34,819 nucleotides of DNA from an uncultured Quadrisphaera sp. GTDB taxonomy: Bacteria; Actinomycetota; Actinomycetes; Actinomycetales; Quadrisphaeraceae. The notes below the pieces were generated by a model. The model had not been told where the DNA came from and did no database searches. It saw only the letters and a list, made by a program, of their open reading frames with translations. A program made the translations under genes and the position numbers. Location: contig CADCUY010000575.1 of the NCBI GenBank assembly GCA_902806005.1, forward strand, positions 1 through 34,819. The letters are read 5' to 3'. Shown piece after piece: positions 11,340 to 27,847 of this stretch (position 1 is the stretch's first letter; each line of letters starts with the position of its first letter).

Positions 11340-11364
11340 TGACCGGCCGGACGGAGACCGGTCA
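11340..11364. terminator. Inverted repeat TGACCGG-N11-CCGGTCA between convergent genes
   Basis: 7-bp perfect arms spanning the gap between stops at 11325(+) and 11362(-). Confidence 0.4.
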
Positions 11365-12477
11365 GGGGAGCAGGACGGGCTTGACGGCGTCACCGGCGAG
11401 CATGTCGCGGGCGGCCACCTCGACGTCCGCCAGGGGGTAGGTGCGGACGAGGCGGTGGACGGCCAGGGTCCCGTCGGCGACGCGGTCCGCCAACCACGGC
11501 AGCGTCGTCCGCGGCCTGGCGTCCCCCTCGACGGTGCCGCGGATGGTCAGGCTCCGGTTGACGACCGCGGCGACGTCGAGCGGGGTGGTGGTGCCGAACG
11601 GCGGTGCGCCGACGAGGACGCAGGTCCCCCCGGGCCGCAGGACGCCGAGCGCCTCGGGCAGGACGCGCGGTGACCCGCTGCACTCGACGAGGACGTCCGC
11701 GCCGCCGTCCCGGCGCAGCTCGTCGTAGGGGTCCGTCCCCGTGGCGTCGAGGACGTCCGTGGCGCCGAGGTCCGAGGCCACCTGCAGGCGCCGCGGGTCG
11801 AGGTCCACGGCGATGACGCGGGCGGCGGGGGAGCACCGCGCGGCGGCCATGACGGCGGACATGCCGACCGGCCCGAGGCCCACGACGACGACCGTCGAGC
11901 CGAGGGTCGGCCGCGCGACGGTGAGCACGGCGCCGGTGCCGGTCTGCACCGCGCACCCCAGCGGGGCGAGCAGCACCGGGTCCACGTCCTGCCGGACGGG
12001 GACGGCGTTGCGCGCGGTGGCGATGGCGAGGCTGGCGAAGGACGACTGCCCGAAGAAGCCGGTCCAGGCGCCGCTGTGCTGGCCGCGCAGGGCGTGGCGC
12101 GGTGGATCCGCCCCGTCAGCGCCGAAGTTCCGGTCCATGTAGTGGGCGCAGCGCGTCGGAGCGCCGGCGCCGCACTGCGCGCAGGACCCGCAGGCGTCGA
12201 AGGTGAGCACGACCCGGTCGCCGCGGCGCACGGTCTGCACCTGCGCACCGACGTCGAGGACGAGGCCGGTGCCCTCGTGACCCAGGACGGCGGGGAGGGG
12301 GACGGGGAAGTCCCCGTCGCGGGCGGCGAGGTCGGCGTGGCACATCCCCACGGCGTCGACCTCGACGAGCACCTCGTCACCCAGGGGAGCGCGGACCTCC
12401 ACGTCCTCCACGTCGAAGCGCGTCCCCCGGCCGCGGACGAGGGCGGCGCGGCCGCGGCGCGCGGGGGCCTCCCTCAC
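11362..12477 (-). CDS. Zinc-dependent (aryl-)alcohol dehydrogenase, MDR family
   Basis: GMCHADLAARDGDFPVPLPAVLGHEGTGLVLDVG, structural Zn cysteines CGSCAQCGAGAPTRC, VVVGLGPVGMSAVMAA. GTG start 12477. Confidence 0.9.
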   Translation of the reverse strand: MREAPARRGRAALVRGRGTRFDVEDVEVRAPLGDEVLVEVDAVGMCHADLAARDGDFPVPLPAVLGHEGTGLVLDVGAQVQTVRRGDRVVLTFDACGSCAQCGAGAPTRCAHYMDRNFGADGADPPRHALRGQHSGAWTGFFGQSSFASLAIATARNAVPVRQDVDPVLLAPLGCAVQTGTGAVLTVARPTLGSTVVVVGLGPVGMSAVMAAARCSPAARVIAVDLDPRRLQVASDLGATDVLDATGTDPYDELRRDGGADVLVECSGSPRVLPEALGVLRPGGTCVLVGAPPFGTTTPLDVAAVVNRSLTIRGTVEGDARPRTTLPWLADRVADGTLAVHRLVRTYPLADVEVAARDMLAGDAVKPVLLP

Positions 12478-13619
12478 CGGCGCACGAGCCGCTGGCGGGC
12501 GACCGTGGACACGGTGACGGCGATGACCAGGGCAGCGCCGTAGAAGACGTTGCTGACCCACCCGGAGAACCCCAGGAGCTGCAGGCCCACGATGCCCGTG
12601 ATGAGGAAGTACACGGTGATCAGGGTGCCCAGGGGGTTGAACTTGCCGGGCTGGACGACGGCCGTGCCGAGGAAGGTGGCGGCGAGGGCCGGCAGCAGGT
12701 AGGAGCCCGAGGTGCTGGAGTCGAAGCCACCGACGCTGGCCGCCAGGAGGATCCCGCCGATGCTGGAGCTGGTCCCGGAGAAGACGTAGGCCCCGAAGCG
12801 GATCCGCTGGACGCGGACGCCCGACAGGCGCGCCACCTCCCGGTTCGCGCCCACGAAGTTCATGTGCCGGCCCAGAGGGGTGTAGGCGAGGACGACGGCG
12901 AAGGCCACCGCGACGACGACGCCGTAGTAGAAGGAGATCGGCAGGCCGAACCCGCCCACGTTGTAGCTCGCGACGAGGGCGAGCTGGTCGCTGAGGCCCG
13001 ACGTCGTCACGAGGCCCGAGATCGCCTGGGCCACGCCCAGCAGCAGGACGCTCATCCCGAGCGTGGTGACGATGGGGTCGATGCCGAGCACGACGATGAT
13101 GAAGCCGTTCAGGGCCCCGCAGGCCACCCCTGCGGCGAAGGCCACGAGGACGGCCACGGGCTCCGGCAGGCCCGTGTTGACGGCGAGGACCCCGACCGTG
13201 GTGGCCGACAGGCCCATGATGGACGCGATGGACAGGTCGAACTCCCCGACGACGAAGACGGCCACGGCCGCCGTGCCGAGGAAGACCAGGGTCGCCTGCG
13301 AGCCGAAGATGGTCTGCGCCGTGCCGAGGGAGAGGAACGTGTCCGGGATGAGGACGGCGTACACGGCGGCCATGACCAGCCACACGACGACGAGCCCGTA
13401 GCGGCCCGCCAGGTCGCGCACCCGCGCCGAGGCCGGGGCGGCGGACCGGCGGGCGCCGGTGGCGGTCGTGGTCCCCGGCGGTGGCGCAGCGGGCGGGGTC
13501 GTCGGACTCGCGGCGGCGGGCGGTGCGTCGAGGTCGTGGCTCACGGGTGGTCTCCTGGGGACGTCGTCGGGAGAGTCGTGGGTGGTGGGCGTCGGTGCCC
13601 CGGTCGTGCGCCTCGTCAT
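12474..13619 (-). CDS. ABC transporter permease, RbsC/XylH-type
   Basis: IFGSQATLVFLGTAAVAVFVVGEFDLSIASIMGLSATTVGVLAVN, GIDPIVTTLGMSVLLLGV, RIRFGAYVFSGTSSSIGGILLAA; start overlaps the stop of the ATPase gene. Confidence 0.9.
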   Translation of the reverse strand: MTRRTTGAPTPTTHDSPDDVPRRPPVSHDLDAPPAAASPTTPPAAPPPGTTTATGARRSAAPASARVRDLAGRYGLVVVWLVMAAVYAVLIPDTFLSLGTAQTIFGSQATLVFLGTAAVAVFVVGEFDLSIASIMGLSATTVGVLAVNTGLPEPVAVLVAFAAGVACGALNGFIIVVLGIDPIVTTLGMSVLLLGVAQAISGLVTTSGLSDQLALVASYNVGGFGLPISFYYGVVVAVAFAVVLAYTPLGRHMNFVGANREVARLSGVRVQRIRFGAYVFSGTSSSIGGILLAASVGGFDSSTSGSYLLPALAATFLGTAVVQPGKFNPLGTLITVYFLITGIVGLQLLGFSGWVSNVFYGAALVIAVTVSTVARQRLVRR

Positions 13620-15172
13620 GTCGCGGCGAGGATGTCGTCGGCCGTCATCGGGGCGTGCAGCTCGCGGGCGATGCGCCCGTCGGCGAGGACCAGGACGCGG
13701 TCGCAGACCAGCGCGAGGTCCTGGGCCTCGATGCTGGAGAGCAGGACGGCGCTGCCCTCGTCCGCCGCCCGGCCCACCGCCCGCAGGATCTCCGCGCGGG
13801 CCCCGACGTCGACGGCCTGGGTCGGCTCGTGCAGCACCAGCAGCGCCGGGCGGGACAGGAGCCACTTGGCGAGGAGGAGCTTCTGCTGGTTGCCGCCGCT
13901 GAAGGCGCTCGCCTCCAGGTCGGGCTCCGGGGGCGTGACGGACAGGCGGGCGCAGGCGTCGTCGAACTCCCGCTGCTGCCAGCCCCGCCGCAGGAGCCCG
14001 CGCTGCGCGCGCCGCTTCACGCGGGGGAGGGTGACGTTCTCCAGCGCGGTCATCGTGACGGCGATGCCCTCGTTGGCGCGGTCGGACGGGACGAGGGCGA
14101 CGCCGATGGCCGTGGTGGCCGACACGCCCGCACCGGCGAGGTCCACGGTGCCGCCGCCGGCGACCTCCAGGTGCCCGTGGGCGACGGCCGGGCGCACCCC
14201 GGCGACGAGGTAGGGCAGCTCCTCGCTGCCCGAGTCGGTCGCCCCCGTCACGCCGACGACCTCGCCCGGGGCGATCTCCAGGTCCACCCCGGCGACGGTG
14301 GCGCCCCGGACGTCGCGCAGCCGGGCCGCCGGTGCCGGTGCGTCGCGCAGCTCGGCCGTGCGGCGGTGCGGCACGAAGCCGACGAGCTCGCGACCGAGGA
14401 TGACCCGTGCCAGCGCCGCCTCGCTCATCCCCGCCGTCGGTGCACCGGCCGCGGTGACCTCGCCGTCGCGGAGCACCGTGACGCGGCTGGCCAGCTGGAG
14501 CACCTCGTCGAGCCGGTGGCTGACGATGAGGATGCTCGTCCCCTGGGCCGCGAGCCGCCGCACGGTGGCGTAGAAGCCCGGCAGCACGTCGCGGGGCAGG
14601 GACTGGGTCGACTCGTCGAGCACGATGCAGCCGCGGCCGGGCACGATCCCCTGCATCGCCCGGGCGATGGCGACCGTGGCGCGCTGGCCCATCGGCAGCT
14701 GGTCGACCATCCGGTCGGGGTCGATGTCGGCGTGCAGGGCCGCCAGCGCTGCCACGGCCCGTTCGCGCTCGTGGGACCAGCGGATGAGCCGCGACCAGCC
14801 GCGGCCGCGCAGCTGGCCGAGGCGCACGTTCTCGGTGACCGTGTGGCCGGGGACGAGGCCGAGGCTCTGGTGGACGATCGTCAGGCCGCGGGCGCTGATC
14901 CCGGCCGGGGTGAGCGGCTGGGGGACCTCCGTGCCGTCGATCCGGACGACCGCGCCGGGGTCGGGGCGGTGCAGGCCCGACAGGACCTTGATGAGCGTGG
15001 ACTTGCCGCTGCCGTTCTGGCCGAGGAGGGCGTGGACCTCCCCGGGTGCCACGGCGATGGAGGCGTGCTTGAGGACCCTGCTGCGGCCGAAGGTCTTCGA
15101 CAGGTCCGACACCTCGAGGCGGGCGGTGGTGCTCGCCGCGGCGGCGTGGCCGGCCTCGTGCACGGCGGTCAT
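13616..15172 (-). CDS. ABC transporter ATP-binding protein, RbsA/MglA-type with two NBDs
   Basis: Walker A LLGQNGSGKSTLIKVLSG; second NBD FSGGNQQKLLLAKWLLSRPALLVLHEPTQAVDVGARAEI. Confidence 0.92.
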   Translation of the reverse strand: MTAVHEAGHAAAASTTARLEVSDLSKTFGRSRVLKHASIAVAPGEVHALLGQNGSGKSTLIKVLSGLHRPDPGAVVRIDGTEVPQPLTPAGISARGLTIVHQSLGLVPGHTVTENVRLGQLRGRGWSRLIRWSHERERAVAALAALHADIDPDRMVDQLPMGQRATVAIARAMQGIVPGRGCIVLDESTQSLPRDVLPGFYATVRRLAAQGTSILIVSHRLDEVLQLASRVTVLRDGEVTAAGAPTAGMSEAALARVILGRELVGFVPHRRTAELRDAPAPAARLRDVRGATVAGVDLEIAPGEVVGVTGATDSGSEELPYLVAGVRPAVAHGHLEVAGGGTVDLAGAGVSATTAIGVALVPSDRANEGIAVTMTALENVTLPRVKRRAQRGLLRRGWQQREFDDACARLSVTPPEPDLEASAFSGGNQQKLLLAKWLLSRPALLVLHEPTQAVDVGARAEILRAVGRAADEGSAVLLSSIEAQDLALVCDRVLVLADGRIARELHAPMTADDILAAT

Positions 15173-15200: not shown

Positions 15201-16364
15201 TCACCCCTGCACGCCCCACAGCTCGCGGTACATGGCGCGGAAGTCCTCCTCGGTCTGCCACTGCCCGGACTGCCAGCCCTCCTGGCTGAGGTCCACCTCG
15301 CCGACGTTCGCGGCGGTGAAGGTCTTGACCGGGGTGAGGTGGGCGTCGACGAGGGGGTCCTGCCCGAGCATCATCCGGAGCAGGACGTCGGCGGAGTTCC
15401 AGCCGAGGACGGACAGGCTGTAGCCGGTGTCGGCCCACTGGTCGCCGTCGGCGACCCGCTGGAGCCCGTCGAGCTGCCCGAGGTGGGTCAGGAGCTTGAC
15501 CTCGCCCTGGCGGTTCTGCTGCCGGAGGGCCTGGACGACCGGGGCGGCGAAGGAGTCGTACTGGACGATGACGTACTCGGTGCCCGGCTGCGACACCAGC
15601 GCGGAGCTGACGAGGGAGCTCAGCTGGTTGATGGACGTCGACCCGGTGGGCACGGTGCTGATCGCGCAGTCGGGGCAGGCGGCCTCCAGCTGCCCGACGA
15701 TCCCGTTCTCGAAGAAGTCCACGGTCGTGCTGCTGTCGGTGACGCCGACGACGAGGACCTCGGCGTCGCCGCCGGAGTCCTCCACCAGCAGGTCGATGTT
15801 CAGCGCGGCCTGGTCCGCCCAGTTGTTGGGCAGGGCGGCGGCGAGCTCGCCCCACTCCGGTGGGGTGCTGTCGTCCAGGGTGTTCACGAACAGGGTGGGG
15901 ATCCCGGCCTCGACGGCGTCGCCGAAGGCCTGGCGGGAGAACTCCGGCGGGATCGAGGTCGCGATGATCCCGGCCGCGTCCGCGGCGATCGCCTGCCCGA
16001 CGCAGCGCCCGACGGCGTCAGGGGTCGCCTGCCCGTCGCAGACCTGCAGGTCCATCCCCACGGACTCGAAGGCCTCGGCGGCGGCGGTGCCCTCGATGGT
16101 GAACACCGGTGCCACGGAGGTGATGGGGATCCAGTAGACGGTCCGCCCCTGCAGGGAGGAGGTGTCCCCGAGCGGTGGGCCGGGCGCGGGCACGGTGGCG
16201 AGCTCCGGCGGCTGCGGTGGCGCGCTCGCGGCGTCCGAGGACGGTGCCTGGCCGACGACGGCTGGCGCGTCCCCGGCGCAGCCCGCGACGAGCAGCGCGA
16301 GGGCCGTGACGGCGCCAGCGGCTAGGAGGGTGCGGTGCCCGCGTGAGCGGGGGGTGCGGATCAT
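15201..16364 (-). CDS. ABC transporter substrate-binding lipoprotein, sugar-type periplasmic binding protein
   Basis: Signal peptide with lipobox ALLVAGC; IIATSIPPEFSRQAFGDAVEAGIPTLFVNT; C-terminal WNSADVLLRMMLGQDP. Confidence 0.88.
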   Translation of the reverse strand: MIRTPRSRGHRTLLAAGAVTALALLVAGCAGDAPAVVGQAPSSDAASAPPQPPELATVPAPGPPLGDTSSLQGRTVYWIPITSVAPVFTIEGTAAAEAFESVGMDLQVCDGQATPDAVGRCVGQAIAADAAGIIATSIPPEFSRQAFGDAVEAGIPTLFVNTLDDSTPPEWGELAAALPNNWADQAALNIDLLVEDSGGDAEVLVVGVTDSSTTVDFFENGIVGQLEAACPDCAISTVPTGSTSINQLSSLVSSALVSQPGTEYVIVQYDSFAAPVVQALRQQNRQGEVKLLTHLGQLDGLQRVADGDQWADTGYSLSVLGWNSADVLLRMMLGQDPLVDAHLTPVKTFTAANVGEVDLSQEGWQSGQWQTEEDFRAMYRELWGVQG

Positions 16365-16418: not shown

Positions 16419-17318
16419 CTAGTGGGCTCGAGCTGCCGGGGCCGGGTGCCCGGGCAGGAGGTCGGTCAGGCCGAGGCGGCGGAACATCTCCACGCGCATC
16501 CGGTCGGCCACCGCGGAGACGACCTCCGAGCCGTCGTCCGTGGGGTCGACGTGCACCCGGAAGGGGCGGTCGCCAGCGGGCCGGTCGACGACCTCGGCGA
16601 TCGCCGCGGCGACGGTCGCGACGTCCGCCCACGAGGGCTCGAGGGTGGCGAGCCGCGCCGGGACCTCCTCCTGGAGCCGCCCGTACAGGTCGTCGTAGGC
16701 GGCGGCGCGCTGCACGTCGGCGGCCCGACCGGCGTTGGGGAAGTGCTGCGTCCCCGAGGTGAAGGGCCCGGGGACGACGATGCAGGTGTCGACGCCGAAC
16801 CTGATGAGCTCGGCGGCGTAGCTGACGGCGAGGGCGTCCATCGCCGCCTTGGCCGCGAAGTAGGGCCCCAGGAAGGGCGGGGTGCCGCCCCGGGTCGAGG
16901 AGCTGCCCACCCACAGGAGCAGCGCCTCCCCGCGGGCGCGCAGGTGGGGGAGCAGCTCGCGGTTCAGCCGCTGCGTGCCGAGGACGTTGACGTCGAACAG
17001 GTGGCCCACCTCCTCGACGCTGAAGGCCTCCGCGGGCCCCAGGGCCATGTGCCCGGCGTTGTGCACGACCACGTCGAGGTCGGGGGTCTCGGTGAGGACC
17101 CTCAGCGCGGCGGCGCGGACGGACGCCGCGTCGGTGACGTCGAGCTCGAGCGGACGGATGCGCCCGCCGGGGTGGGCGGCAGCGTCCTGCGCCGCCGCGG
17201 CGTTGCGCCCCGCGGTCGCCCGCATGCCGGCCCACACGGTGTGGCCGGCGTCAGCGAGCGCGCGGCAGGTCAGGGCCCCGATGCCGCTCGAGGCGCCCGT
17301 GACGAGGATGGTGTGCAC
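16419..17318 (-). CDS. SDR-family oxidoreductase
   Basis: ILVTGASSGIGALTCRALADAGHTVWAGMR; DVVVHNAGHMALGP; YFAAKAAMDALAVSYAAEL (YxxxK). Confidence 0.92.
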   Translation of the reverse strand: MHTILVTGASSGIGALTCRALADAGHTVWAGMRATAGRNAAAAQDAAAHPGGRIRPLELDVTDAASVRAAALRVLTETPDLDVVVHNAGHMALGPAEAFSVEEVGHLFDVNVLGTQRLNRELLPHLRARGEALLLWVGSSSTRGGTPPFLGPYFAAKAAMDALAVSYAAELIRFGVDTCIVVPGPFTSGTQHFPNAGRAADVQRAAAYDDLYGRLQEEVPARLATLEPSWADVATVAAAIAEVVDRPAGDRPFRVHVDPTDDGSEVVSAVADRMRVEMFRRLGLTDLLPGHPAPAARAH

Positions 17319-17425
17319 CCAGCCACCGTGGTCGCTCCCGGCTGACGCCCTCTACGGCCTGCTGACCCGACCCGCCCGCCCCCTTGTCGCCCTCCCCGGC
17401 GCCGTCGCGGTCAGGGCGAGCGCGA

Positions 17426-17443
17426 CAGATGTCGCGGACCGTG
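17426..17443 (-). promoter_or_regulatory. Candidate response-regulator site S1 (minus strand CACGGTCCGCGACATCTG)
   Basis: 16/18 identical to 19758-19775(+); in the SDR/kinase divergent region, pointing at the SDR-ABC operon. Confidence 0.5.
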
Positions 17444-17478
17444 GGCGGGGGCTGCTCCGCGCGGGTGGGCGTGATCCA

Positions 17479-17496
17479 CACGGTCCGCGGACGTGG
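17479..17496 (+). promoter_or_regulatory. Candidate response-regulator site S2 (CACGGTCCGCGGACGTGG)
   Basis: First 11 bp (CACGGTCCGCG) identical to S1; contains the palindrome GTCCGCGGAC; forms an inverted repeat with S1 (17433-17443 / 17479-17489). Confidence 0.4.
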
Positions 17497-17520
17497 CAGG
17501 ATGCGAGCGAGGTGAGGCGC

Positions 17521-19104
17521 ATGGACGACGACGTCCGTACCGGACCGGACCGGCTGGGCCCTGTCGCCCTGGCGCGCGTGCTGGAGACCGCTCCGGACGG
17601 CCTGGCGGTGGCCGAGCGGGGGAGCGGCGAGCGCCTGTACGTCAACCCGGCCGGTCGTGGGCTGCTCGCGGACGCGGCGGACCGAGGCGGTGCCGGCCAC
17701 GCGGAGGGCGCGCCCTGCAGGTCCTGCGACGCGTTCGACGCCCGTGCCTCGGGCGAGGTGACGACCACCTCGCACCACGGCCGGCAGCTGGAGCGGATGA
17801 CCGTGCCCGTCGAGGACGGTTCCCGCGCCCTGGCCGTCACGTGGTTCCGCGACGTGACCGCGGTGCGCCAGCGCGAGCGCCACCTGGCGGCGTTCAGCCG
17901 GACCGCGGCCAGCGTCGCCTTCGCCGGGCCCCTGAGCACGGTGCTGGACCGGCTCGCCGCCGAGGTGCGCGACGCCACCGGCATGCTGGCCTGCACCTTC
18001 CTGCTCATGGACGAGGACGGGCGCCTGCGGCAGACGGGGATGACCGACCAGGGCTACCCCGGGGTCGAGGACTACGCCGACCGCATCGAGGCGTGCCGGC
18101 GTCTGGGCGCCCCTCTGCTGTCGGCGACCGCCTTCCGCGACCGGCGCCCCCTCGTCGCCCACGGGTGGCGCGAGCGGACCCTCGCCGACGCCCGCTTCCG
18201 GCCGGTCCACGCCATCGCCCTGCACGCCGGGTGGAGCGCGATGGCCACCGTGCCGGTCGTCTCCCGCGGCCAGGTGATCGGGGTCTTCAACGGCTTCTTC
18301 CGCACCGACGCGGACCCCGTCGACGAGGACCTCCCCTTCCTCAGCGCCATCGCCGACCAGGCGGCGGTCGCGATCGAGAACGCTCGCCTCCTCGGCGCGG
18401 TGGAGACGAAGGTGGCCCTGGAGGAGCGGCACCTGCTCGCCCGGGAGCTGCACGACTCCGTCAGCCAGGCGCTCTTCTCCCTGACGCTGCAGGCGCGCGC
18501 CCTGGAGATCGGGATGGCCTCGGGACGGCTGGACGAGCGGTCGGTCAACGACGGACTCGTGGAGGTCAGGAGGCTCACCGAGGGAGCCCTCGCCGAGATG
18601 CGCGCCCTGATCTTCCAGCTGCGCCCGGCGGCGCTGCGCGAGGAGGGCCTCTTCAGCGCGGTCCGCAAGCACGCCTCGGCCGTGGCCGCCCGGGAGGGGA
18701 TCGCTGTGGACGTCGTGGGTCCCCCGTCCGGTCCCGACCTGGACCCGGCGGTCGAGGAGCAGGTCCTGCGGGTGGTGCAGGAGGCCCTCGGCAACATCGT
18801 CAAGCACGCGGGGGCCGGGTGCGTGGAGGTGCAGCTCCGCCTCGACGCGGGTGCGGCGGACACCCTGGTGGTCGCCATCACGGACGACGGCGCGGGCTTC
18901 GACGTCGCCGCGGACCACCCGGGACACCTGGGGCTGCAGTGCATGGCCGAGCGCGTCGCCCAGGTCGGCGGGACCTTCGCCATCGACTCCGCACCGGGGC
19001 GGACGACGGTGCGAGCCCGGATCCCCGGCGCGGTGCAGGCGCCCGTGGCGACCGCCGTCGACGAGGCGCCGGCAGCGGCCCTGGCGGAGCCGGCCCGTGG
19101 GTGA
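17521..19104 (+). CDS. NarL/DegS-type sensor histidine kinase with PAS-like and GAF domains
   Basis: ETAPDGLAVAERGSGERLYVNPAGRGLL (PAS-like), GAF region ending FLSAIADQAAVAIENARL, LLARELHDSVSQALFSLTLQARAL (HisKA_3), VVQEALGNIVKHAGA and DDGAGFD (HATPase). Confidence 0.93.
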   Translation: MDDDVRTGPDRLGPVALARVLETAPDGLAVAERGSGERLYVNPAGRGLLADAADRGGAGHAEGAPCRSCDAFDARASGEVTTTSHHGRQLERMTVPVEDGSRALAVTWFRDVTAVRQRERHLAAFSRTAASVAFAGPLSTVLDRLAAEVRDATGMLACTFLLMDEDGRLRQTGMTDQGYPGVEDYADRIEACRRLGAPLLSATAFRDRRPLVAHGWRERTLADARFRPVHAIALHAGWSAMATVPVVSRGQVIGVFNGFFRTDADPVDEDLPFLSAIADQAAVAIENARLLGAVETKVALEERHLLARELHDSVSQALFSLTLQARALEIGMASGRLDERSVNDGLVEVRRLTEGALAEMRALIFQLRPAALREEGLFSAVRKHASAVAAREGIAVDVVGPPSGPDLDPAVEEQVLRVVQEALGNIVKHAGAGCVEVQLRLDAGAADTLVVAITDDGAGFDVAADHPGHLGLQCMAERVAQVGGTFAIDSAPGRTTVRARIPGAVQAPVATAVDEAPAAALAEPARG

Positions 19105-19753
19105 GCCGATCCGGGTCCTCCTCGTCGACGACCACGCCGTCGTGCGCCGGGGCCTCGCCGCCTTCTTCTCCGTCCTCGACGACATCGTCGTCGTCGCCGA
19201 GGCCTCCGACGGCCGTGGGGCGATCGCGGAGCTGACCGTGCTGTCCGCCGCCGGTGGGCTCCCCGACGTGGTGGTCATGGACCTGCTGATGCCCCGGATG
19301 GACGGGGTGGAGGGCATCCGCCGGGTGAAGCAGGCCTTCCCCGAGGTGCAGGTGGTGGCGCTGACGAGCTTCAGCGAGACCGAGCGGGTCCGCTCGGCCC
19401 TCGCCGCCGGCGCCTCCGGCTACCTCCTCAAGGACGCCGGCGCCGATGAGGTCGCTGCCGCCGTCCGGGCCGCGCACGCCGGCGAGCTCCACCTCGACCC
19501 CGCCGTGGCCCGCGCGCTGACCAGCGCCCTGGTCACCCCCCGGTCCGATCCCTCCGCGCTCACCCCGCGCGAGCGCGAGGTGGTGGTCTTCATCGCGCAG
19601 GGCCGCTCGAACCAGCAGATCGCCGACGCCCTGGGCATCAGCGAGCGCACCGCCCGCACCCACGTCAGCAACGTCCTGCTCAAGCGCGGCCTGTCCTCCC
19701 GGACCCAGGCCGCGCTGTGGGCCGTGCGCGAGGGCCTGGTCGCCGGGTCGTGA
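19097..19753 (+). CDS. LuxR/NarL-family response regulator
   Basis: IRVLLVDDHAVVRRGLAAFF, VVMDLLMPRMDGVEGIRRVK, YLLKDAGADE; C-terminal LTPREREVVVFIAQGRSNQQIADALGISERTARTHVSNVLLK. Overlaps the kinase stop. Confidence 0.95.
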   Translation: MGEPIRVLLVDDHAVVRRGLAAFFSVLDDIVVVAEASDGRGAIAELTVLSAAGGLPDVVVMDLLMPRMDGVEGIRRVKQAFPEVQVVALTSFSETERVRSALAAGASGYLLKDAGADEVAAAVRAAHAGELHLDPAVARALTSALVTPRSDPSALTPREREVVVFIAQGRSNQQIADALGISERTARTHVSNVLLKRGLSSRTQAALWAVREGLVAGS

Positions 19754-19757
19754 CCGT

Positions 19758-19775
19758 CGTGGTCCGCGACATCTG
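19758..19775 (+). promoter_or_regulatory. Candidate response-regulator site S3 (CGTGGTCCGCGACATCTG)
   Basis: 16/18 identical to S1; 130 bp upstream of the next gene (19905). Confidence 0.5.
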
Positions 19776-19904
19776 ACCCGGACCGGAGGGCGACCCTTGC
19801 GGGGGCCGGGGGCCGTCGCCTGACGATGGTGGCCGCGCGTCCACCCCGCTTGGCTCGAGGGCACTGCGCGGCAGCCCGCCGCGCTCGTCCTTCGAGGAGC
19901 GGCT

Positions 19905-20405
19905 GTGGCGGAGCTCGCGGTGCCGGCCCCGAGCGCAGCCCCCGCGCCGCCGCAGGTGCTGGTGGTCGCGGCCGACCGCCGGGTGCGGGCAGCGCTGGAG
20001 TCGCTGCTGCGCTCCGGATCCTCGGGGTGGGGCGTGGTCGGGGTCGCCACCTGGGCCGAGGCGGCCGTCGTGGCCGCCTCGGCGGGCCCGGGGGTCGTCC
20101 TCGTCGACGTGGCGCCACCGCTGGACGAGCAGCAGCGGGGCCTGCTGGAGGTCCTGAGCGCCGGTGGGCGGGCCGTCGTCGCGCTGTCGGCCTCCGACGC
20201 GGTCCGCCAGGAGGTCCTGGACGCCGGGGCCGCCGCCTTCGTCCCGCGCAGCAGCGGGGCCGACGCGGTCCTCGACGCCATCCACCAGGTGCTCGCGACG
20301 CCGGCGCTGCGCCCCGCCACGAGGGGCACCTCCCCGGTCGCGCCCCGCCGCACCGACGCCCACCCCGACCCGACCGCCCGACGCCTGATGGAGGAGACGC
20401 TGTGA
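19905..20405 (+). CDS. Stand-alone degenerate (pseudo-)receiver-domain protein
   Basis: Receiver-like layout VLVVAADRRVRAALESLL / VVLVDVAPP / VVALSASDAVRQEVLDAGAAAFVPRSSGADAVLDAIHQVL, with no HTH or other output domain. Confidence 0.7.
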   Translation: MAELAVPAPSAAPAPPQVLVVAADRRVRAALESLLRSGSSGWGVVGVATWAEAAVVAASAGPGVVLVDVAPPLDEQQRGLLEVLSAGGRAVVALSASDAVRQEVLDAGAAAFVPRSSGADAVLDAIHQVLATPALRPATRGTSPVAPRRTDAHPDPTARRLMEETL

Positions 20406-21388
20406 GCCACCACCCGCCGACCGACCGTCCCGACCCCTTCGCCCGGTTCCGCTTCGGGGGCTTCGAGTGCACCGTGGTCAGCGACGGGATCCTGCAGCTG
20501 GGACCCGCCCCCGTCACCTTCCCCGGGGCCGACCCGGCCGAGGTCGACGCGCTGCTCGCCGACCACCACCTGCCGCTGGACGCGGTGCGCCTGGACGAGA
20601 ACGTCCTCGTCGTCGACACCGGTGACGCTCTCGTGCAGTTCGACTCCGGTGTCGGGACCGACCCCGCGCTCGGCCGCGGGTTCTTCGGCCCCGGCACCGG
20701 GCACGTCGTCCCCGCCATGCGCTCCGCCGGCATCGACCCCGCGGACATCGACGTGCTGGCCATCACCCACACCCACCCCGACCACGTCTGGGGCCTCACC
20801 GACCCCGACGGCGCCCCCCTGTACCCCAACGCCACCGTCGCCGTCAGCCGAGCGGACTTCGACCACTGGACGGACCTCTCGAGGGTCGCCACCGCGCCCA
20901 ACCAGCACATGGCCGACCACTACACGGGGGCGCACAAGAACCTCCTGCCCTACCACGAGGCCGGGCGCCTGCGCTGGGTCGACGACGGCGACGAGGTCGT
21001 CCCGGGCGTCACGGCGATCGCGACGCCCGGGCACAGCCCGGGCCACCTGGTGTACCGGGTGTCCAGCGAGGGGGAGTCCATGCTCGTGTGGGGCGACCTC
21101 TGCCACCACCAGGTGCTGCTCCTGCAGCACCCCGAGTGGGCCTTCCAGTTCGACTGGGACGGGCCGGCCGCCACCGCGCAGCGCTGGCGGATCTACCAGC
21201 TGGCGCACGAAGGACGGGACGCCGTCCTCGCCTACCACTTCCCCTTCCCGGGGCTCGGGCACCTGCGCCGGGAGGGCGGGGGCTACGCCTGGGTGCCGCA
21301 GGAGCTGCCCCGGAGGCCGGTGGGCGCCGCGCGCGCCACCCCGGCGGTGCCGCACGACGGGCTCGCGGCCGCGGTGGGGCAGCGGTGA
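20402..21388 (+). CDS. MBL-fold metallo-hydrolase
   Basis: ITHTHPDHVWGL (HxHxDH), ATPGHSPGHLVY, VWGDLCHH, YHFPFPGLG; GTGA overlap with the upstream gene. Confidence 0.93.
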   Translation: MSHHPPTDRPDPFARFRFGGFECTVVSDGILQLGPAPVTFPGADPAEVDALLADHHLPLDAVRLDENVLVVDTGDALVQFDSGVGTDPALGRGFFGPGTGHVVPAMRSAGIDPADIDVLAITHTHPDHVWGLTDPDGAPLYPNATVAVSRADFDHWTDLSRVATAPNQHMADHYTGAHKNLLPYHEAGRLRWVDDGDEVVPGVTAIATPGHSPGHLVYRVSSEGESMLVWGDLCHHQVLLLQHPEWAFQFDWDGPAATAQRWRIYQLAHEGRDAVLAYHFPFPGLGHLRREGGGYAWVPQELPRRPVGAARATPAVPHDGLAAAVGQR

Positions 21389-22359
21389 ACCGCCGGCGGA
21401 TCGACGTCCACAGCCACTTCGTCACCGACTCCTACCGCGCTGCCCTGGACGCCGCCGGCATCGACCACCCGGACGGCATCAGGGCCACGCCGGCGTGGAG
21501 CGAGGCCGCGGCCCTGGAGGCCATGGACCGCCTCGACGTGGAGGTCGCCGTGCTGTCGGTCTCCACCCCGGGCGTGCACCTCGGGGACGACGCCGCGGCG
21601 GCCGCCCTGGCGAGGACGGTCAACGAGGAGGCCGCCGCCATCCGCGAGCGGCACCCCCACCGCTTCGGCTCCTTCGCGAGCCTGCCCCTGCCCGACGTCG
21701 ACGCCGCCCTCGTCGAGCTCACCCACGCCCTCGACGTGCTCGGTGCCGACGGGGTGGTGGTGCAGACGAACTCCGGGGGCGTCTACCTCGGCGACGAGCG
21801 CCTCGAGCCGCTGTACGCCGAGCTCGCCGCCCGCGGCGCCGTGCTCTTCCTGCACCCGACCACCGCGCACGCCGGCGAGCACCTGGGCCTCGGCTACCCC
21901 CGCCCGATGCTCGAGTTCATGTTCGACACCACCCGCTCGGTCGCGGACATGGTCCTCTCCGGCGTGCTCGAGCGGCACCCGGACCTGCAGGTGATCGTCC
22001 CGCACGCCGGAGCCGCGCTGTCCGTCCTGGCCGACCGCGTGGAGCTGCTGCTGCCCCTGCTCACCCCTCCGGGCGGGCGACCGGCACCGAGCCTGCGGGC
22101 GGCGCTGGGGCGCCTGCACTTCGACCTCGCCGGGGCTCCCGTCCCGGAGCTGCTGCGCGCACTGCTCGCCGTCGCCGACCCCTCGAAGCTGCACTACGGC
22201 AGCGACTTCCCGTTCACCCCGGCGGACGCCGCGGTCGCCCTCGCGGAGCGCCTGGACACCACCGACCTGCTCGACGACGAGCTGCGCGCGGGCGTCGACG
22301 CCGGGCACAGCCTCGACCTGCTGCCGCGGCTGCGCCGACCCGCGGCGGCCCCCGCATGA
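21385..22359 (+). CDS. Amidohydrolase, ACMSD / aromatic decarboxylase-like
   Basis: IDVHSHFVTDSYRAAL (HxH), LFLHPTTAHAG, MLEFMFDTTRSVADMVLSGVLERHPDLQVIVPHAGAAL, LHYGSDFPFTPA. Confidence 0.88.
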   Translation: MNRRRIDVHSHFVTDSYRAALDAAGIDHPDGIRATPAWSEAAALEAMDRLDVEVAVLSVSTPGVHLGDDAAAAALARTVNEEAAAIRERHPHRFGSFASLPLPDVDAALVELTHALDVLGADGVVVQTNSGGVYLGDERLEPLYAELAARGAVLFLHPTTAHAGEHLGLGYPRPMLEFMFDTTRSVADMVLSGVLERHPDLQVIVPHAGAALSVLADRVELLLPLLTPPGGRPAPSLRAALGRLHFDLAGAPVPELLRALLAVADPSKLHYGSDFPFTPADAAVALAERLDTTDLLDDELRAGVDAGHSLDLLPRLRRPAAAPA

Positions 22360-23471
22360 GCACCGCGACCGCCGCCGTCGTCCACGAGCCCGGCGGTCCG
22401 TTCACCCTGACCGAGGTGGAGCTCGGACCCCTGCGACCCGACGAGGTCCGCGTGCGCACCGTCGCCACCGGCGTGTGCCACACCGACCTGTCGGCGGCGA
22501 GCGGAGCGACGCCCTTCCCGCTGCCGGGGGTGCTCGGGCACGAGGGGGCCGGGGTCGTCGAGGAGGTGGGCGCCCAGGTGGGGCGCGCCGCCGTCGGTGA
22601 CCGGGTGCTGATGAGCTTCACGTCCTGCGGCCGGTGCCGGCGCTGCCGCCAGGGGCACCCGGCGTACTGCCGGGACCACCTCTCGCTCAACCTCCTCGGG
22701 GGGCGGCGGGCCGACGGCACCACCCCGGTCACGGTGCGCGGTCGGGAGCTCAACGCCCACTTCTTCGGGCAGTCCTCCTTCGCCACCCGGGTCGTCGCCG
22801 ACGAGCGGGGCCTCGTCGTCCTGCCCCCGGGGACGACCGACGAGGACCTCGTCGTCCTCGCCCCCCTCGGGTGCGGCCTGATGACCGGGGCGGGCGCCGT
22901 CCTCAACGAGCTGCGCCCCCGTCCCGACGACGTCCTCGCCATCACCGGCGCCGGGGCGGTCGGCCTCGCGGCCGTCATGGCCGCCCGGGCGACGTCCGTG
23001 GCGCGGGTCGTCGTCGTCGACCGGCTGCCCTCCCGCCTGGACCTCGCCCTCGAGCTGGGGGCGACCGACGTCGTCGACACCACCGCGGTGGACCTGGAGG
23101 ACGCGCTCGAGGAGCTCACGCAGGGACGGGGGGTCGACGCCGCCGTGGAGACGACCGGGGTCGTGCCCGTCCTCGACGCCCTCGTCGCCAGCCTCGCCGT
23201 GCGCGGGCGGTGCGCCGTCGTCGGCGCACCGCCCGCCGGCTCCCGGGGCTCCTTCGACGTCCAGGCCCTGCTGCCCGGGCGGAGCATCCGCGGGGTCACC
23301 CTCGGTGACGCGGAGGCGGAGTCCTTCGTCCCCGCGCTCCTCGGGCTGCACCGCCAGGGCCGCTTCCCCCTCGAGCGCCTGCAGGTCACCTACCCGTTCG
23401 CCGACATCGGCCGGGCCGTCGCGGACGCCGCCCGCGGCGACACCGTGAAGCCCGTGCTGGTCTTCGGCTGA
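22356..23471 (+). CDS. Zinc-dependent (aryl-)alcohol dehydrogenase, MDR family
   Basis: GVCHTDLSAASGATPFPLPGVLGHEGAGVVEEVG, CGRCRRCRQGHPAYC, HFFGQSSFATRVV, ITGAGAVGLAAVMAA; ATGA overlap with the amidohydrolase. Confidence 0.92.
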   Translation: MSTATAAVVHEPGGPFTLTEVELGPLRPDEVRVRTVATGVCHTDLSAASGATPFPLPGVLGHEGAGVVEEVGAQVGRAAVGDRVLMSFTSCGRCRRCRQGHPAYCRDHLSLNLLGGRRADGTTPVTVRGRELNAHFFGQSSFATRVVADERGLVVLPPGTTDEDLVVLAPLGCGLMTGAGAVLNELRPRPDDVLAITGAGAVGLAAVMAARATSVARVVVVDRLPSRLDLALELGATDVVDTTAVDLEDALEELTQGRGVDAAVETTGVVPVLDALVASLAVRGRCAVVGAPPAGSRGSFDVQALLPGRSIRGVTLGDAEAESFVPALLGLHRQGRFPLERLQVTYPFADIGRAVADAARGDTVKPVLVFG

Positions 23472-23511
23472 CCGTCCCCCGCGGGCCCGGGCACGACCGC
23501 GTCGTGGCCGG

Positions 23512-23535
23512 CGTCCGGGACGGATGACCCGGACC
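23512..23535 (+). promoter_or_regulatory. Candidate degenerate site S4 upstream of the P450 operon
   Basis: CGTCCGGGACGGATGACCCGGACC is 19/24 identical to 19761-19784, including the 11-mer TGACCCGGACC. Confidence 0.35.
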
Positions 23536-23646
23536 CGCCCCCCGGGAGCCCCCGGCCGCCACCGGCCGCAGCGCCGTGCCGCCGCGGCCGTCACCGTCCT
23601 TGACTGATCCCCCGACGCAGCACCGGACCCGAAGGAGGGCCCCGAC

Positions 23647-24825
23647 GTGGCAGTGCTCGCACCACCGTCGTCCGACATCGACCTGTGGGAGGACGCCTCG
23701 CTGGCCGACCCCTACCCGCTGTACCAGCAGCTGCGCGACCTGGGACCCGTGGTCCACCTGTCCGCGCAGGACGCCTTCGCCATCCCGCGCTACGACCCGC
23801 TGCGCGAGGCGCTGGCCGACTGGCACAGCTTCACCTCCGCGCGCGGGGTGATGATGAACGACCACGTGAACTCCGCGTTCACGGGGATCGTGCTGCACAC
23901 CGACCCCCCCGAGCACGACGTGATGCGCAAGGTCCTCGCAGCGCCCCTGCGCCCCGACCAGCTGCGCCTCATCACGCCCCGGGTGCGCGCCGAGGCGGAC
24001 GCCGTGGTCGACCGCCTCGTGCACCGGGGTCGCTTCGACGCGGCCACCGACCTGGCCCAGCACCTCCCGCTGACGATCGTGTCCACGCTCGTCGGGCTCG
24101 GCGACTTCGGCAAGGAGCGGATGCTGGAGTGGGCGGCGGCGACGTTCGACGCCCAGGGCCCGGTGGACCGGGCCCGCACGCGCGCTGCCTTCCCGAAGCT
24201 CGACGAGATGGTCGCCTACGCCACTCAGGAGGTCACCGCGGAGAAGGTCGACCCCGCGGGCTGGGTCGCGGCCCTGTACGCGGCCGCCGACCGAGGCGCC
24301 CTGCGGCCCGGGCAGCCCGAGGCCATGGTCATGGACTACACCGGGCCCGCCCTGGACACCACGATCTTCGCCACGTCCAGCGCGATCTGGCTGTTCGCCC
24401 AGCACCCCGACCAGTGGGACCTCGTCCGGGAGGACCCGCGGCTCATCCCGCACGCCATCAACGAGGTGGTGCGCCTGGAGAGCCCGATCCAGCGCTTCTC
24501 CCGGGTCGCCACCAGGGACGTCGAGGTCGGCGGTCACCTCGTCCCGGAGGGGGCGCGGGTGCTGATGCTGTTCGCGTCCGGCAACCGCGACGAGCGGCAC
24601 TACCCCGACCCCGAGCGCTTCGACGTGCGCCGCCGCCCCTCCGACCACCTCGCCTTCGGGCACGGGGTCCACGCCTGCGTCGGCATGAACCTCGCCCGGC
24701 TCGAGATCCGCCTGCTCCTGGAGGCCCTCGCCGCGAAGGTCGAGCGCTTCGAGCTCCTCGGAGTGGAGCGCGCCGTCAACAGCACCCTGCGCGGCATCGC
24801 CCACCTCGACGTCGCGGTGAGCTGA
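23647..24825 (+). CDS. Cytochrome P450 (bacterial class I)
   Basis: FGHGVHACVGMNLARLE heme loop, EVVR (ExxR), I-helix DYTGPALDTTIFA. Confidence 0.96.
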   Translation: MAVLAPPSSDIDLWEDASLADPYPLYQQLRDLGPVVHLSAQDAFAIPRYDPLREALADWHSFTSARGVMMNDHVNSAFTGIVLHTDPPEHDVMRKVLAAPLRPDQLRLITPRVRAEADAVVDRLVHRGRFDAATDLAQHLPLTIVSTLVGLGDFGKERMLEWAAATFDAQGPVDRARTRAAFPKLDEMVAYATQEVTAEKVDPAGWVAALYAAADRGALRPGQPEAMVMDYTGPALDTTIFATSSAIWLFAQHPDQWDLVREDPRLIPHAINEVVRLESPIQRFSRVATRDVEVGGHLVPEGARVLMLFASGNRDERHYPDPERFDVRRRPSDHLAFGHGVHACVGMNLARLEIRLLLEALAAKVERFELLGVERAVNSTLRGIAHLDVAVS

Positions 24826-24837
24826 GAGGAGCCGGTC

Positions 24838-25158
24838 GTGAAGCTCACCTTCCGCCGCCCCGACGGGTCCCACGGCGTCCACGACACCGACCCCGGCACC
24901 TCGGTCATGGAGGCCGCCGTCGCGCACGGGGAGGACGGCATCGTCGCCGAGTGCGGCGGGTCGCTGATGTGCGCGACCTGCCACGTCTACGTCGACCCCG
25001 CCTTCTCCGACCTCCTGGCCCCGCCCGCGGAGGACGAGGCGGAGATGCTCACCTGCACCGCGGCCGAGCGCCGACCCACCAGCCGGCTGTCCTGCCAGCT
25101 CGTCCTCACCGACGACCTCGACGGCCTCGTCGTCGAGATCCCCGAGGAGCAGGTGTGA
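24838..25158 (+). CDS. [2Fe-2S] ferredoxin (adrenodoxin/putidaredoxin type)
   Basis: ECGGSLMCATCHVYV...SRLSCQLVLTDDLDGLVVEIPEEQ; GTG start. Confidence 0.94.
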   Translation: MKLTFRRPDGSHGVHDTDPGTSVMEAAVAHGEDGIVAECGGSLMCATCHVYVDPAFSDLLAPPAEDEAEMLTCTAAERRPTSRLSCQLVLTDDLDGLVVEIPEEQV

Positions 25159-26393
25159 GCGCGGGGAGCGTGGTCGTCGTCGGCGGGGGACAGGCGGGGT
25201 TCCAGACCGCCGCGTCCCTGCGCCAGGAGGGCTACGCCGGGCGGGTCGTCCTCGTCGGCGACCGGCACCCGCCCTACCAGCGACCTCCGCTGTCCAAGGC
25301 CTACCTCACCGGGCGCGTGGACGTGGCCGAGCTCGCCTTCCGCCCCGGCGACTTCTACGCGCGCCACCGCATCGAGGTGGTGCCCGGACCGGTCACCGCC
25401 GTCGACCGGGCCGGCCGCACCGTCGCGCTGGCGACCGGTGAGCACCTGGCGTACGAGCACCTGGTCCTCGCCACCGGGTGCCGCGCCCGCCGGCTCGGCG
25501 TGCCCGGGCAGGACCTGCGCGGCGTCCACTACCTGCGGGACGTCGACGACGCGAGCGCGCTCGTGGAGCACCTCGGGAGGGCTGAGCGCCTCGTCGTCGT
25601 CGGGGCCGGCTTCATCGGGCTGGAGGTGGCCGCCGCCGCGCGCCAGCGCGGGGCCGAGGTCACCGTCCTGGAGTTCGCCCCCCGCGCCATGGGCCGGGCG
25701 GTCTCGGCCTGTGTCGGCGACTTCTTCATCGGCCGCCACCGCGCCGCCGGGACCAGGGTCGAGGTCTCCACCGGTGTGGAGGCGCTGCTCGACGACGGCG
25801 ACGGCCACGTCCGCGGGGTGCGCGCGAGCACCGGGGAGGTGCTGCCCGCCGACCTCGTCGTCGTCGGTGTCGGCGTCCTGCCGCGCACCGACCTCGCCGA
25901 GGCGGCCGGCCTCACCGTCGACGGGGGCGTCCTCGTCGACGACCACCTGCGGTCGGTCGACGACGCGGCCGTCTCGGCGGTCGGGGACTGCAGCCGCTTC
26001 GTGGACTCCCGCTCCGGGGCGCGCGTCCGCCTGGAGTCGGTCCAGAACGCCGTGGACCAGGGGCGGTGCGTCGCCGCCCGCATCGCCGGGAGACCGTTCC
26101 CCTACACCGCCCTGCCCTGGTTCTGGACGGACCAGCTGGGGTCCAAGCTCCAGATCGCCGGCCTGTCCGCCGGGCACGACCGCGCGGTGCTGGTCGGGGA
26201 CGGGGTCGGCGGCCCGTTCTCCGTGTACTGCTTCGCGGGCCAGCGCCTCCTGGCCGTGGAGTCGGTCGACCGACCCGCGGACCACATGGCGGCCCGCCGG
26301 GTGCTCGGCGCCGGTGGGGACGCGCTCGCCGCCGTCACCCCCGACACCGTGCGCCGCGAGGGCTTCCGGCTGCGTGACCTGGTGGCGGCGTGA
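25155..26393 (+). CDS. FAD-dependent ferredoxin reductase (putidaredoxin reductase-like)
   Basis: VVVVGGGQAGFQTAASLRQEGYAGRVVLVGDRHPPYQRPPLSKAYL; VVVGAGFIGLEVAAAARQRGAEVTVLE; VSAVGDCSRF; GTGA overlap with the ferredoxin. Confidence 0.95.
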   Translation: MSAGSVVVVGGGQAGFQTAASLRQEGYAGRVVLVGDRHPPYQRPPLSKAYLTGRVDVAELAFRPGDFYARHRIEVVPGPVTAVDRAGRTVALATGEHLAYEHLVLATGCRARRLGVPGQDLRGVHYLRDVDDASALVEHLGRAERLVVVGAGFIGLEVAAAARQRGAEVTVLEFAPRAMGRAVSACVGDFFIGRHRAAGTRVEVSTGVEALLDDGDGHVRGVRASTGEVLPADLVVVGVGVLPRTDLAEAAGLTVDGGVLVDDHLRSVDDAAVSAVGDCSRFVDSRSGARVRLESVQNAVDQGRCVAARIAGRPFPYTALPWFWTDQLGSKLQIAGLSAGHDRAVLVGDGVGGPFSVYCFAGQRLLAVESVDRPADHMAARRVLGAGGDALAAVTPDTVRREGFRLRDLVAA

Positions 26394-27847
26394 CCGCCGT
26401 CGCTGCGAGCCCCTTCACCGACCGCGCGGCGGCCCACTGGATCGGCGGGGCCCGGCTGGAGGAGGGACCCGTCCTCCTCTCCACCGACCCGGCGACCGAC
26501 CAGCCCCTGGGGGCCTTCCACGACGGGGGCCGGGACACCGCCGTCGCCGCCGTCGCGGCGGCGCGTGCGGCCTTCCGCGGCTCGTCGTGGCGCACTGACC
26601 GCGAGCTGCGCTCCCGTGCCCTGTGGGCGCTCGCGGACGCCGTCGAGGCGCAGCTGGAGCGGCTGGCGACCGCGATCACCCTGGAGAACGGCAAGCCGCT
26701 GGGGCAGGCCCGCTTCGAGCTGTCCATCGCCGCCCCGAAGCTGCGCTACTACGCCGGGCTCGCCCTGACCGACCTCGGGTCCGCGGCGACCAGCCGGACG
26801 GGCGCCGTCTCCATGCTGCTCAAGGAGCCGGTCGGCGTCGCCGGCATCATCGTCCCCTGGAACTCCCCGGTCGTCCTCGCCGTCCGCAGCCTGGCCCCCG
26901 CCCTGGCCGCCGGATGCACCGCCGTGGTGAAGATGCCGGCCCAGACCGCCCTGACCGCGGCGCTGCTCAGCGAGGTCCTGGCCGGCGTCCCCGCCCTGCC
27001 CGCGGGCGTCGTCAACGTCTTCACCGAGTCCGGCGACGCCGGCGCGAAGGAGCTCGTCGCCTCCCGGGACGTCGCGGTCGTCTCCTACACCGGCAGCAGC
27101 GCCGTCGGCAGCCGGATCATGGCCGCGGCCGCCCCGCAGCTCAAGCGGGTGTCCCTGGAGCTCGGCGGGAAGACCCCGATGATCGTCTTCGACGACGCGG
27201 ACCTCGAGGTGGCGCTCCCCGCGCTGACGGGCGCCGCGACGACCTTCGCCGGTCAGTTCTGCATGACCGGCAGCCGGGTGCTCGTGCAGAGGTCCGTCGC
27301 CGACCGCGTCAGGGACGGCCTGGTCCTCGCCCTGGGGTCGCTGCGGCTCGGGCCGGGCACCGAGGCTGCCACCCAGCTCGGGCCGCTCGTCGACCACGCA
27401 GCCGTCGACCGGGTGGAGGCGCTCGTCGCTGCGGCGGAAGCCACCGACGGTGTGGAGGTCCTGCTCCGCGGCGGGCCCACCGAGGGGCCGGGGGCGTTCT
27501 TCCGGCCCGCCGTGATCGCCGTCCAGGACGTCTCCTCGCCCCTCGTCCAGGAGGAGGTCTTCGGCCCCGTCGTGACCCTGGAGGTCTTCGACACCGAGGA
27601 CGAGGCCGTCGAACGGGCCAACGCCACCGACTACGGGCTGGCCGCCTCCGTGTGGACCCGGGACGGCGCCCGGTCCCTGCGGGTCTCCGCGGCCGTCGAG
27701 GCGGGGACGGTCTGGACCAACGACTGGGCGCAGATCCTCGACCAGTTCGAGGAGGGCGGGTACAAGCGCAGCGGCCTCGGCCGGTTGAACGGCCCTGGTG
27801 GGCTGGCCGAGTTCCAGGAGGTCAAGCACGTCTACCGCGCGGTCTGA
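26390..27847 (+). CDS. Aldehyde dehydrogenase
   Basis: GIIVPWNSPVVLAVRSLAPALAAGCTAVVKMPAQT, SYTGSSAVGSRIM, VSLELGGKTPMIVF, GQFCMTGSRVLV, EVFGPVVTLEVF. Confidence 0.94.
   Translation: MTAVAASPFTDRAAAHWIGGARLEEGPVLLSTDPATDQPLGAFHDGGRDTAVAAVAAARAAFRGSSWRTDRELRSRALWALADAVEAQLERLATAITLENGKPLGQARFELSIAAPKLRYYAGLALTDLGSAATSRTGAVSMLLKEPVGVAGIIVPWNSPVVLAVRSLAPALAAGCTAVVKMPAQTALTAALLSEVLAGVPALPAGVVNVFTESGDAGAKELVASRDVAVVSYTGSSAVGSRIMAAAAPQLKRVSLELGGKTPMIVFDDADLEVALPALTGAATTFAGQFCMTGSRVLVQRSVADRVRDGLVLALGSLRLGPGTEAATQLGPLVDHAAVDRVEALVAAAEATDGVEVLLRGGPTEGPGAFFRPAVIAVQDVSSPLVQEEVFGPVVTLEVFDTEDEAVERANATDYGLAASVWTRDGARSLRVSAAVEAGTVWTNDWAQILDQFEEGGYKRSGLGRLNGPGGLAEFQEVKHVYRAV

Follow-up and report, generated by a model that had tools for sequence, protein, structure and literature searches.

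A 24-bp Dyad as the Predicted Operator of a NarL-Type Response Regulator in a Catabolic Gene Cluster of an Uncultured Quadrisphaera sp.

Three copies of a 24-bp imperfect inverted repeat occur in a catabolic gene cluster of an uncultured Quadrisphaera sp., within the 34,819-nt stretch of contig CADCUY010000575.1 analyzed here (the window). With a probability of about 0.8, these dyads are operators for the response regulator of the same cluster (19097–19753), whose predicted binding would jointly control the genes of uptake, catabolism, and the regulatory system itself.

The putative binder (19097..19753, plus strand) is a NarL/VraR-type response regulator (RR) comprising a receiver domain and a GerE helix-turn-helix (HTH), as judged from Pfam, its translation, and its PDB relatives; it matches VraR, NarL, and DevR over the full length. 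It is preceded on the same strand by a sensor histidine kinase (HK) with GAF, HisKA_3, and HATPase_c domains (17521..19104; Pfam, translation), and the pair has the domain composition of a NarL/FixJ-type regulator with a HisKA_3 kinase, the Pfam matches being above gathering cut-offs. On the minus strand, the uptake operon starts with a short-chain dehydrogenase/reductase (SDR; 16419..17318, Pfam adh_short) followed by a sugar-type periplasmic binding protein (15201..16364, Peripla_BP_4), an RbsA/AraG-like ABC importer ATPase with two ABC domains (13616..15172; Pfam, with NCBIfam matches below cut-offs), a probable ABC permease (12474..13619, start approximate) recognized as a hydrophobic reading frame rather than by family search, and a zinc alcohol dehydrogenase (ADH; 11362..12450, start approximate; ADH_N and ADH_zinc_N).

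On the plus strand, downstream of the RR gene, lie a receiver-like protein (REC; 19905..20405), an MBL-fold hydrolase resembling AidB lactonase with a family match below the cut-off (20402..21388), an Amidohydro_2 hydrolase (21385..22359, Pfam), and a second zinc ADH (22356..23471; Pfam, NCBIfam below cut-offs). They are followed by a cytochrome P450 (23647..24825, Pfam), a 2Fe-2S ferredoxin (24838..25158, Fer2), a ferredoxin reductase (25155..26393, Pyr_redox_2 and Reductase_C), and an aldehyde dehydrogenase (26390..27847, Aldedh). The receiver-like protein (166 aa) had no Pfam match and was recognized by its weak similarity to receivers in the PDB (E 7e-6). By eye, the usual paired acidic residues near its N-terminus are missing, and it may be a degenerate receiver. 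Under the operon grouping suggested by gene order, three sites could serve four units, i.e., SDR/binding protein/ABC ATPase/permease/ADH, HK-RR, REC-MBL-amidohydrolase-ADH, and P450-ferredoxin-ferredoxin reductase-aldehyde dehydrogenase.

The initial annotation described a near-identical 18-bp motif flanking the two-component system, and the two copies do agree at 16 of 18 positions, sharing the identical 15-nt run GGTCCGCGACATCTG. The first copy (17426–17443) is located 108 nt from the SDR start at 17318, as reported, and, besides facing the SDR gene, it also stands upstream of the kinase gene, 80 bp from the ATG. The second copy (19758–19775) is 129 nt from the operon start at 19905, close to the 130 bp given before; it begins 4 nt, and not 5 nt, after the RR stop codon, which ends at 19753. 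Inverted-repeat analysis and inspection revealed that each 18-mer comprises one arm and the spacer of the longer dyad, with the consensus GGTCCGSGWCA-NN-TGWCSCGGACC. The copies were described as pointing toward their operons; they have no intrinsic direction, since each is half of a near-symmetric dyad, and the first site also lies in the kinase promoter region. Hence, the reading of the repeat as a directional motif was rejected.

Site A (17417..17440, no strand), CGAGCGCGACA-GA-TGTCGCGGACC, includes the first copy; its distance is 98 bp to the SDR start and, again, 80 bp to the kinase ATG. It has three mismatches to GGTCCGCGACANNTGTCGCGGACC and an exact core. Site B (19761..19784, no strand), GGTCCGCGACA-TC-TGACCCGGACC, takes in most of the second copy and is positioned 7 nt past the RR stop codon and 120 bp ahead of the receiver-like gene, with two mismatches to the dyad pattern and the core exact on the minus strand. 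Measured against GGTCCGCGACA-NN-TGTCGCGGACC, sites A and B have three and two mismatches, respectively. Site C (23512..23535, no strand), CGTCCGGGACG-GA-TGACCCGGACC, which was absent from the initial annotation along with the probable autoregulation, also has the exact core and lies between the ADH and P450 genes, 40 nt after the preceding stop codon, with the P450 start 111 bp further on. Sites B and C have an identical arm (11/11), and the other arm of B recurs in A; the three sites are therefore linked by shared half-sites. All of them fit an 11-2-11 arrangement with a 7-2-7 core, i.e., inverted half-sites with a 2-bp spacer, which is the operator geometry of NarL-type regulators, and the start codons of the transcription units are found 80–120 bp from their sites. 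Just upstream of the kinase start, CACGGTCCGCG (17479–17489) repeats the outer half of site A exactly over 11 nt in inverted orientation, with 35 nt between the arms; possibly, it is an extra half-site. Promoter hexamers from which an activation geometry could be judged were not recognized.

The element is confined to the cluster. In the 2.86-Mb draft genome (606 contigs, 76% complete), A and B are the only matches within three mismatches of the dyad (reversed control, 0), and the exact 15-mer GGTCCGCGACATCTG occurs only in these two places. The core SGWCRGATGWCSCGG has exactly three matches, A, B, and C; as this pattern was written from the same sites, the informative part is that the genome contains no other match, so the core is restricted to the cluster instead of being common across the genome. 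Further sites may exist outside the 76%-complete assembly. Among the other genomes of the order, dyad matches were detected in 8 of 296, one site each, and the 3-kb stretches around these stray matches (n = 8) encoded no relatives of the window kinase, regulator, or operon genes.

Loci encoding related kinase/regulator pairs conserve the core. Three genomes (G007, G009, and G025) and Saccharopolyspora (L023) encode relatives that match most of the kinase; the regulators of these loci are 57–63% identical to the window RR, and the same core is present. In L141 and L142, it is found upstream of a LigM-like gene and 17–31 nt past the point where the RR match ends, in L143 beside the RR and another gene, and in L023 just after the RR; a related form of the element is present at the corresponding regulator genes in about ten actinobacteria besides the window. 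Overall, the recurrent positions in relatives are upstream of the HK, just after the RR, and upstream of LigM O-demethylase or transport genes belonging to lignin-aromatic clusters.

A position weight matrix (PWM) built from the window and the sites of these relatives was applied to 11 further loci, obtained in a class-wide kinase search and unused in its construction. Over the 177 kb of these held-out loci, 8 sites reached 15 bits or more, whereas the background rate in Streptomyces loci (2 in 902 kb) predicts 0.4; the probability is still 1e-4 with the upper bound of the background. The Streptomyces regulators (L024 and others, 50–54% identity), which group apart, had no strong site beside the RR in the inspected cases and were used as this background. 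When the PWM was built from other genomes only, its top three sites in the window were A (23.2 bits), C (21.2), and B (14.3); in 20 simulated windows, the highest score ranged from 9.9 to 15.2, so A and C stand far above this range and B alone falls within it. Together with the positions of the element in the relatives, this blind recovery places the window in the HK-RR family of the LigM clusters as defined by a core adjoining the HK and/or the RR. In three related loci (L163, L166, and L167), the HK-RR genes had no strong site, and the tree joining the motif-carrying regulators has weak support (78/94). Synteny was also sought via the MBL protein, a route which was abandoned: its relatives in G583 and G428 show neither a common cluster nor a strong site. 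The closest of them (L182, 9376–10287, in G583) is 53–55% identical, and the rest of the window cluster is absent from its surroundings.

The ortholog-type core CGSGACRRATGACGTAG, a pattern written after the held-out loci had been seen and hence not fully independent of them, had exact matches in 5 of the 11 genomes with the HK (HK-positive) and in 4 of the 383 without it (HK-negative; p = 7e-7). Three of the four HK-negative matches (L188, L189, and L190) are an identical CGGGACAGATGACGTAG and are probably not promoter sites, since they reside inside a conserved coding gene which looks like pheS; such coding matches inflate the motif counts. Outside the HK-RR loci, the core also occurs in HK-positive genomes ahead of two transporter genes, one ABC-like (L186) and one of the MFS type (L187), both named by sequence appearance and not by family search.

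The bare 15-mer repeat, taken by itself, is weak evidence because a window of 75% GC offers many such exact pairs, of which 45 direct and 70 inverted ones were counted. Still, the longest word common to the two intergenic regions is 15 nt, a length reached by 0 of 394 random piece pairs of the same size. A chance match in GC-rich sequence is an explanation favored by the abundance of such pairs but contradicted by the dyad symmetry, the third site, the genome-wide occurrence of the core in this cluster only, and the recovery of A, C, and B by a motif from other genomes; in view of this restriction and blind recovery it was rejected, its probability being negligible. Scarcely more credible is that the dyads act at the RNA level, as hairpins which follow the RR and ADH genes and serve in termination or mRNA processing. 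The location of B and C, 7 and 40 nt past stop codons, would suit this, as would the RNA folding of site A, somewhat better than that of shuffled sequences (z −2.3), but A lies between divergent genes and the sequence itself, not the pairing alone, is conserved. With no gain in folding over shuffled sequences for B and C (z 0.08 and −0.47) and no terminator-like site with a T run in 16800–24000, the terminator or hairpin was discarded as well.

Less remote, though unlikely, is that another transcription factor controls the same cluster through the dyads, and that the two-component genes adjoin them merely as cluster members. Long GC-rich palindromes are typical of other regulator families too. 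Nevertheless, the element tracks the HK-RR pair across families with differing catabolic neighbors and is enriched in HK-positive genomes; moreover, family searches between 11362 and 27847 revealed no other regulator gene except the receiver-like protein, which has no HTH match. The initial annotation had proposed that the repeat is the DNA-binding site of the regulator encoded between its copies, through which uptake and catabolism would be co-activated. This idea gains from the confinement of the core in the genome and its conservation at related HK-RR loci, while the part concerning orientation has to be dropped.

Taking the dyads as operators of the window RR, one can envisage the following chain of events. 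The GAF-containing kinase (17521–19104) would sense a signal or ligand, conceivably an inducer of the aromatic type, and phosphorylate the RR; the phosphorylated RR dimer would then bind the 24-bp dyad with its 2-bp spacer in a geometry similar to the NarL 7-2-7 one. Site A would serve the HK-RR genes, making their autoregulation probable, as well as the divergent SDR/ABC-uptake/ADH operon; sites B and C would act on the REC-MBL-amidohydrolase-ADH operon and the P450-ferredoxin-ferredoxin reductase-aldehyde dehydrogenase operon, respectively. The RR would most likely operate as an activator of the uptake, catabolic, and regulatory genes together.

By sequence, the closest solved relative of the window RR is VraR of Staphylococcus (PDB 5hev, E 3e-49), a regulator of the cell-wall stress response. 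The system also resembles NarX/NarL of E. coli: the kinase NarX is likewise of the HisKA_3 type, the RRs are homologous over the full length (E 4e-37), and both operators consist of inverted half-sites 2 bp apart. At the same time, the window operator displays CGSGWCR arms instead of the NarL heptamer, its conserved arms reach 11 bp, and its cluster is catabolic, whereas NarX/NarL serves nitrate respiration. In the NarL sites, the 2-bp spacer separates inverted repeats in the 7-2-7 scheme (PMC7419079). The closest functional parallel seems to be MnoSR of Mycobacterium smegmatis, another two-component system, whose palindromic site is present once, 137 bp ahead of an alcohol dehydrogenase operon (PMC11303327); MnoSR thus has one site per genome and the window has three. 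A description of the regulator family considered here was not found in the open-access literature searched.

The neighbors of the relatives include a LigM vanillate/3-O-methylgallate O-demethylase (NF047885, above cut-off), a 4-oxalomesaconate tautomerase (NF033377, above cut-off), a LigB-type extradiol dioxygenase, and a muconolactone-isomerase-like protein. In L141–L143 and L157–L162, HK-RR pairs of the family are neighbors of LigM, LigB, and genes of related kinds, and the operator is located at the HK/RR and, in several of these loci, at LigM; the set of elements in these loci is a possible regulon for methoxyaromatic catabolism. Since LigM, LigB-type, and related genes adjoin its HK-RR pairs, the family appears to control the catabolism of lignin-derived aromatics. 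These pairs and that of the window are alike in HK architecture, RR sequence (57–63% identity), operator core, and site positions; however, the former border O-demethylase and 4,5-cleavage genes and the latter borders P450, MBL, amidohydrolase, and ABC uptake genes. No vanillate/3-O-methylgallate O-demethylase or LigAB families were found among the scanned window genes, so the window system works like a LigM-cluster regulator but is not filed as one; it has the P450/MBL/amidohydrolase set in place of LigM/LigAB genes. The chances are about even that an actinobacterial GAF-kinase/NarL-type family extends across the class, using one conserved 24-bp operator for the uptake and catabolism (LigM/LigAB) of methoxyaromatics derived from lignin, and that the window harbors a rewired member with a more symmetric operator variant serving the P450/MBL/amidohydrolase pathway and the ABC importer.

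Overall, the dyads are candidate operators of the known NarL type which delimit a credible regulon and would tie the regulator family to methoxyaromatic catabolism. If this is true, an uncharacterized regulator would receive a defined operator and a compact regulon of three sites and four transcription units, and the operator could help to find more members of the regulon and to assign a substrate to the P450/MBL/amidohydrolase cluster. The regulator family would thereby be linked to the control of genes for lignin-aromatic O-demethylation and 4,5-cleavage in actinobacteria.
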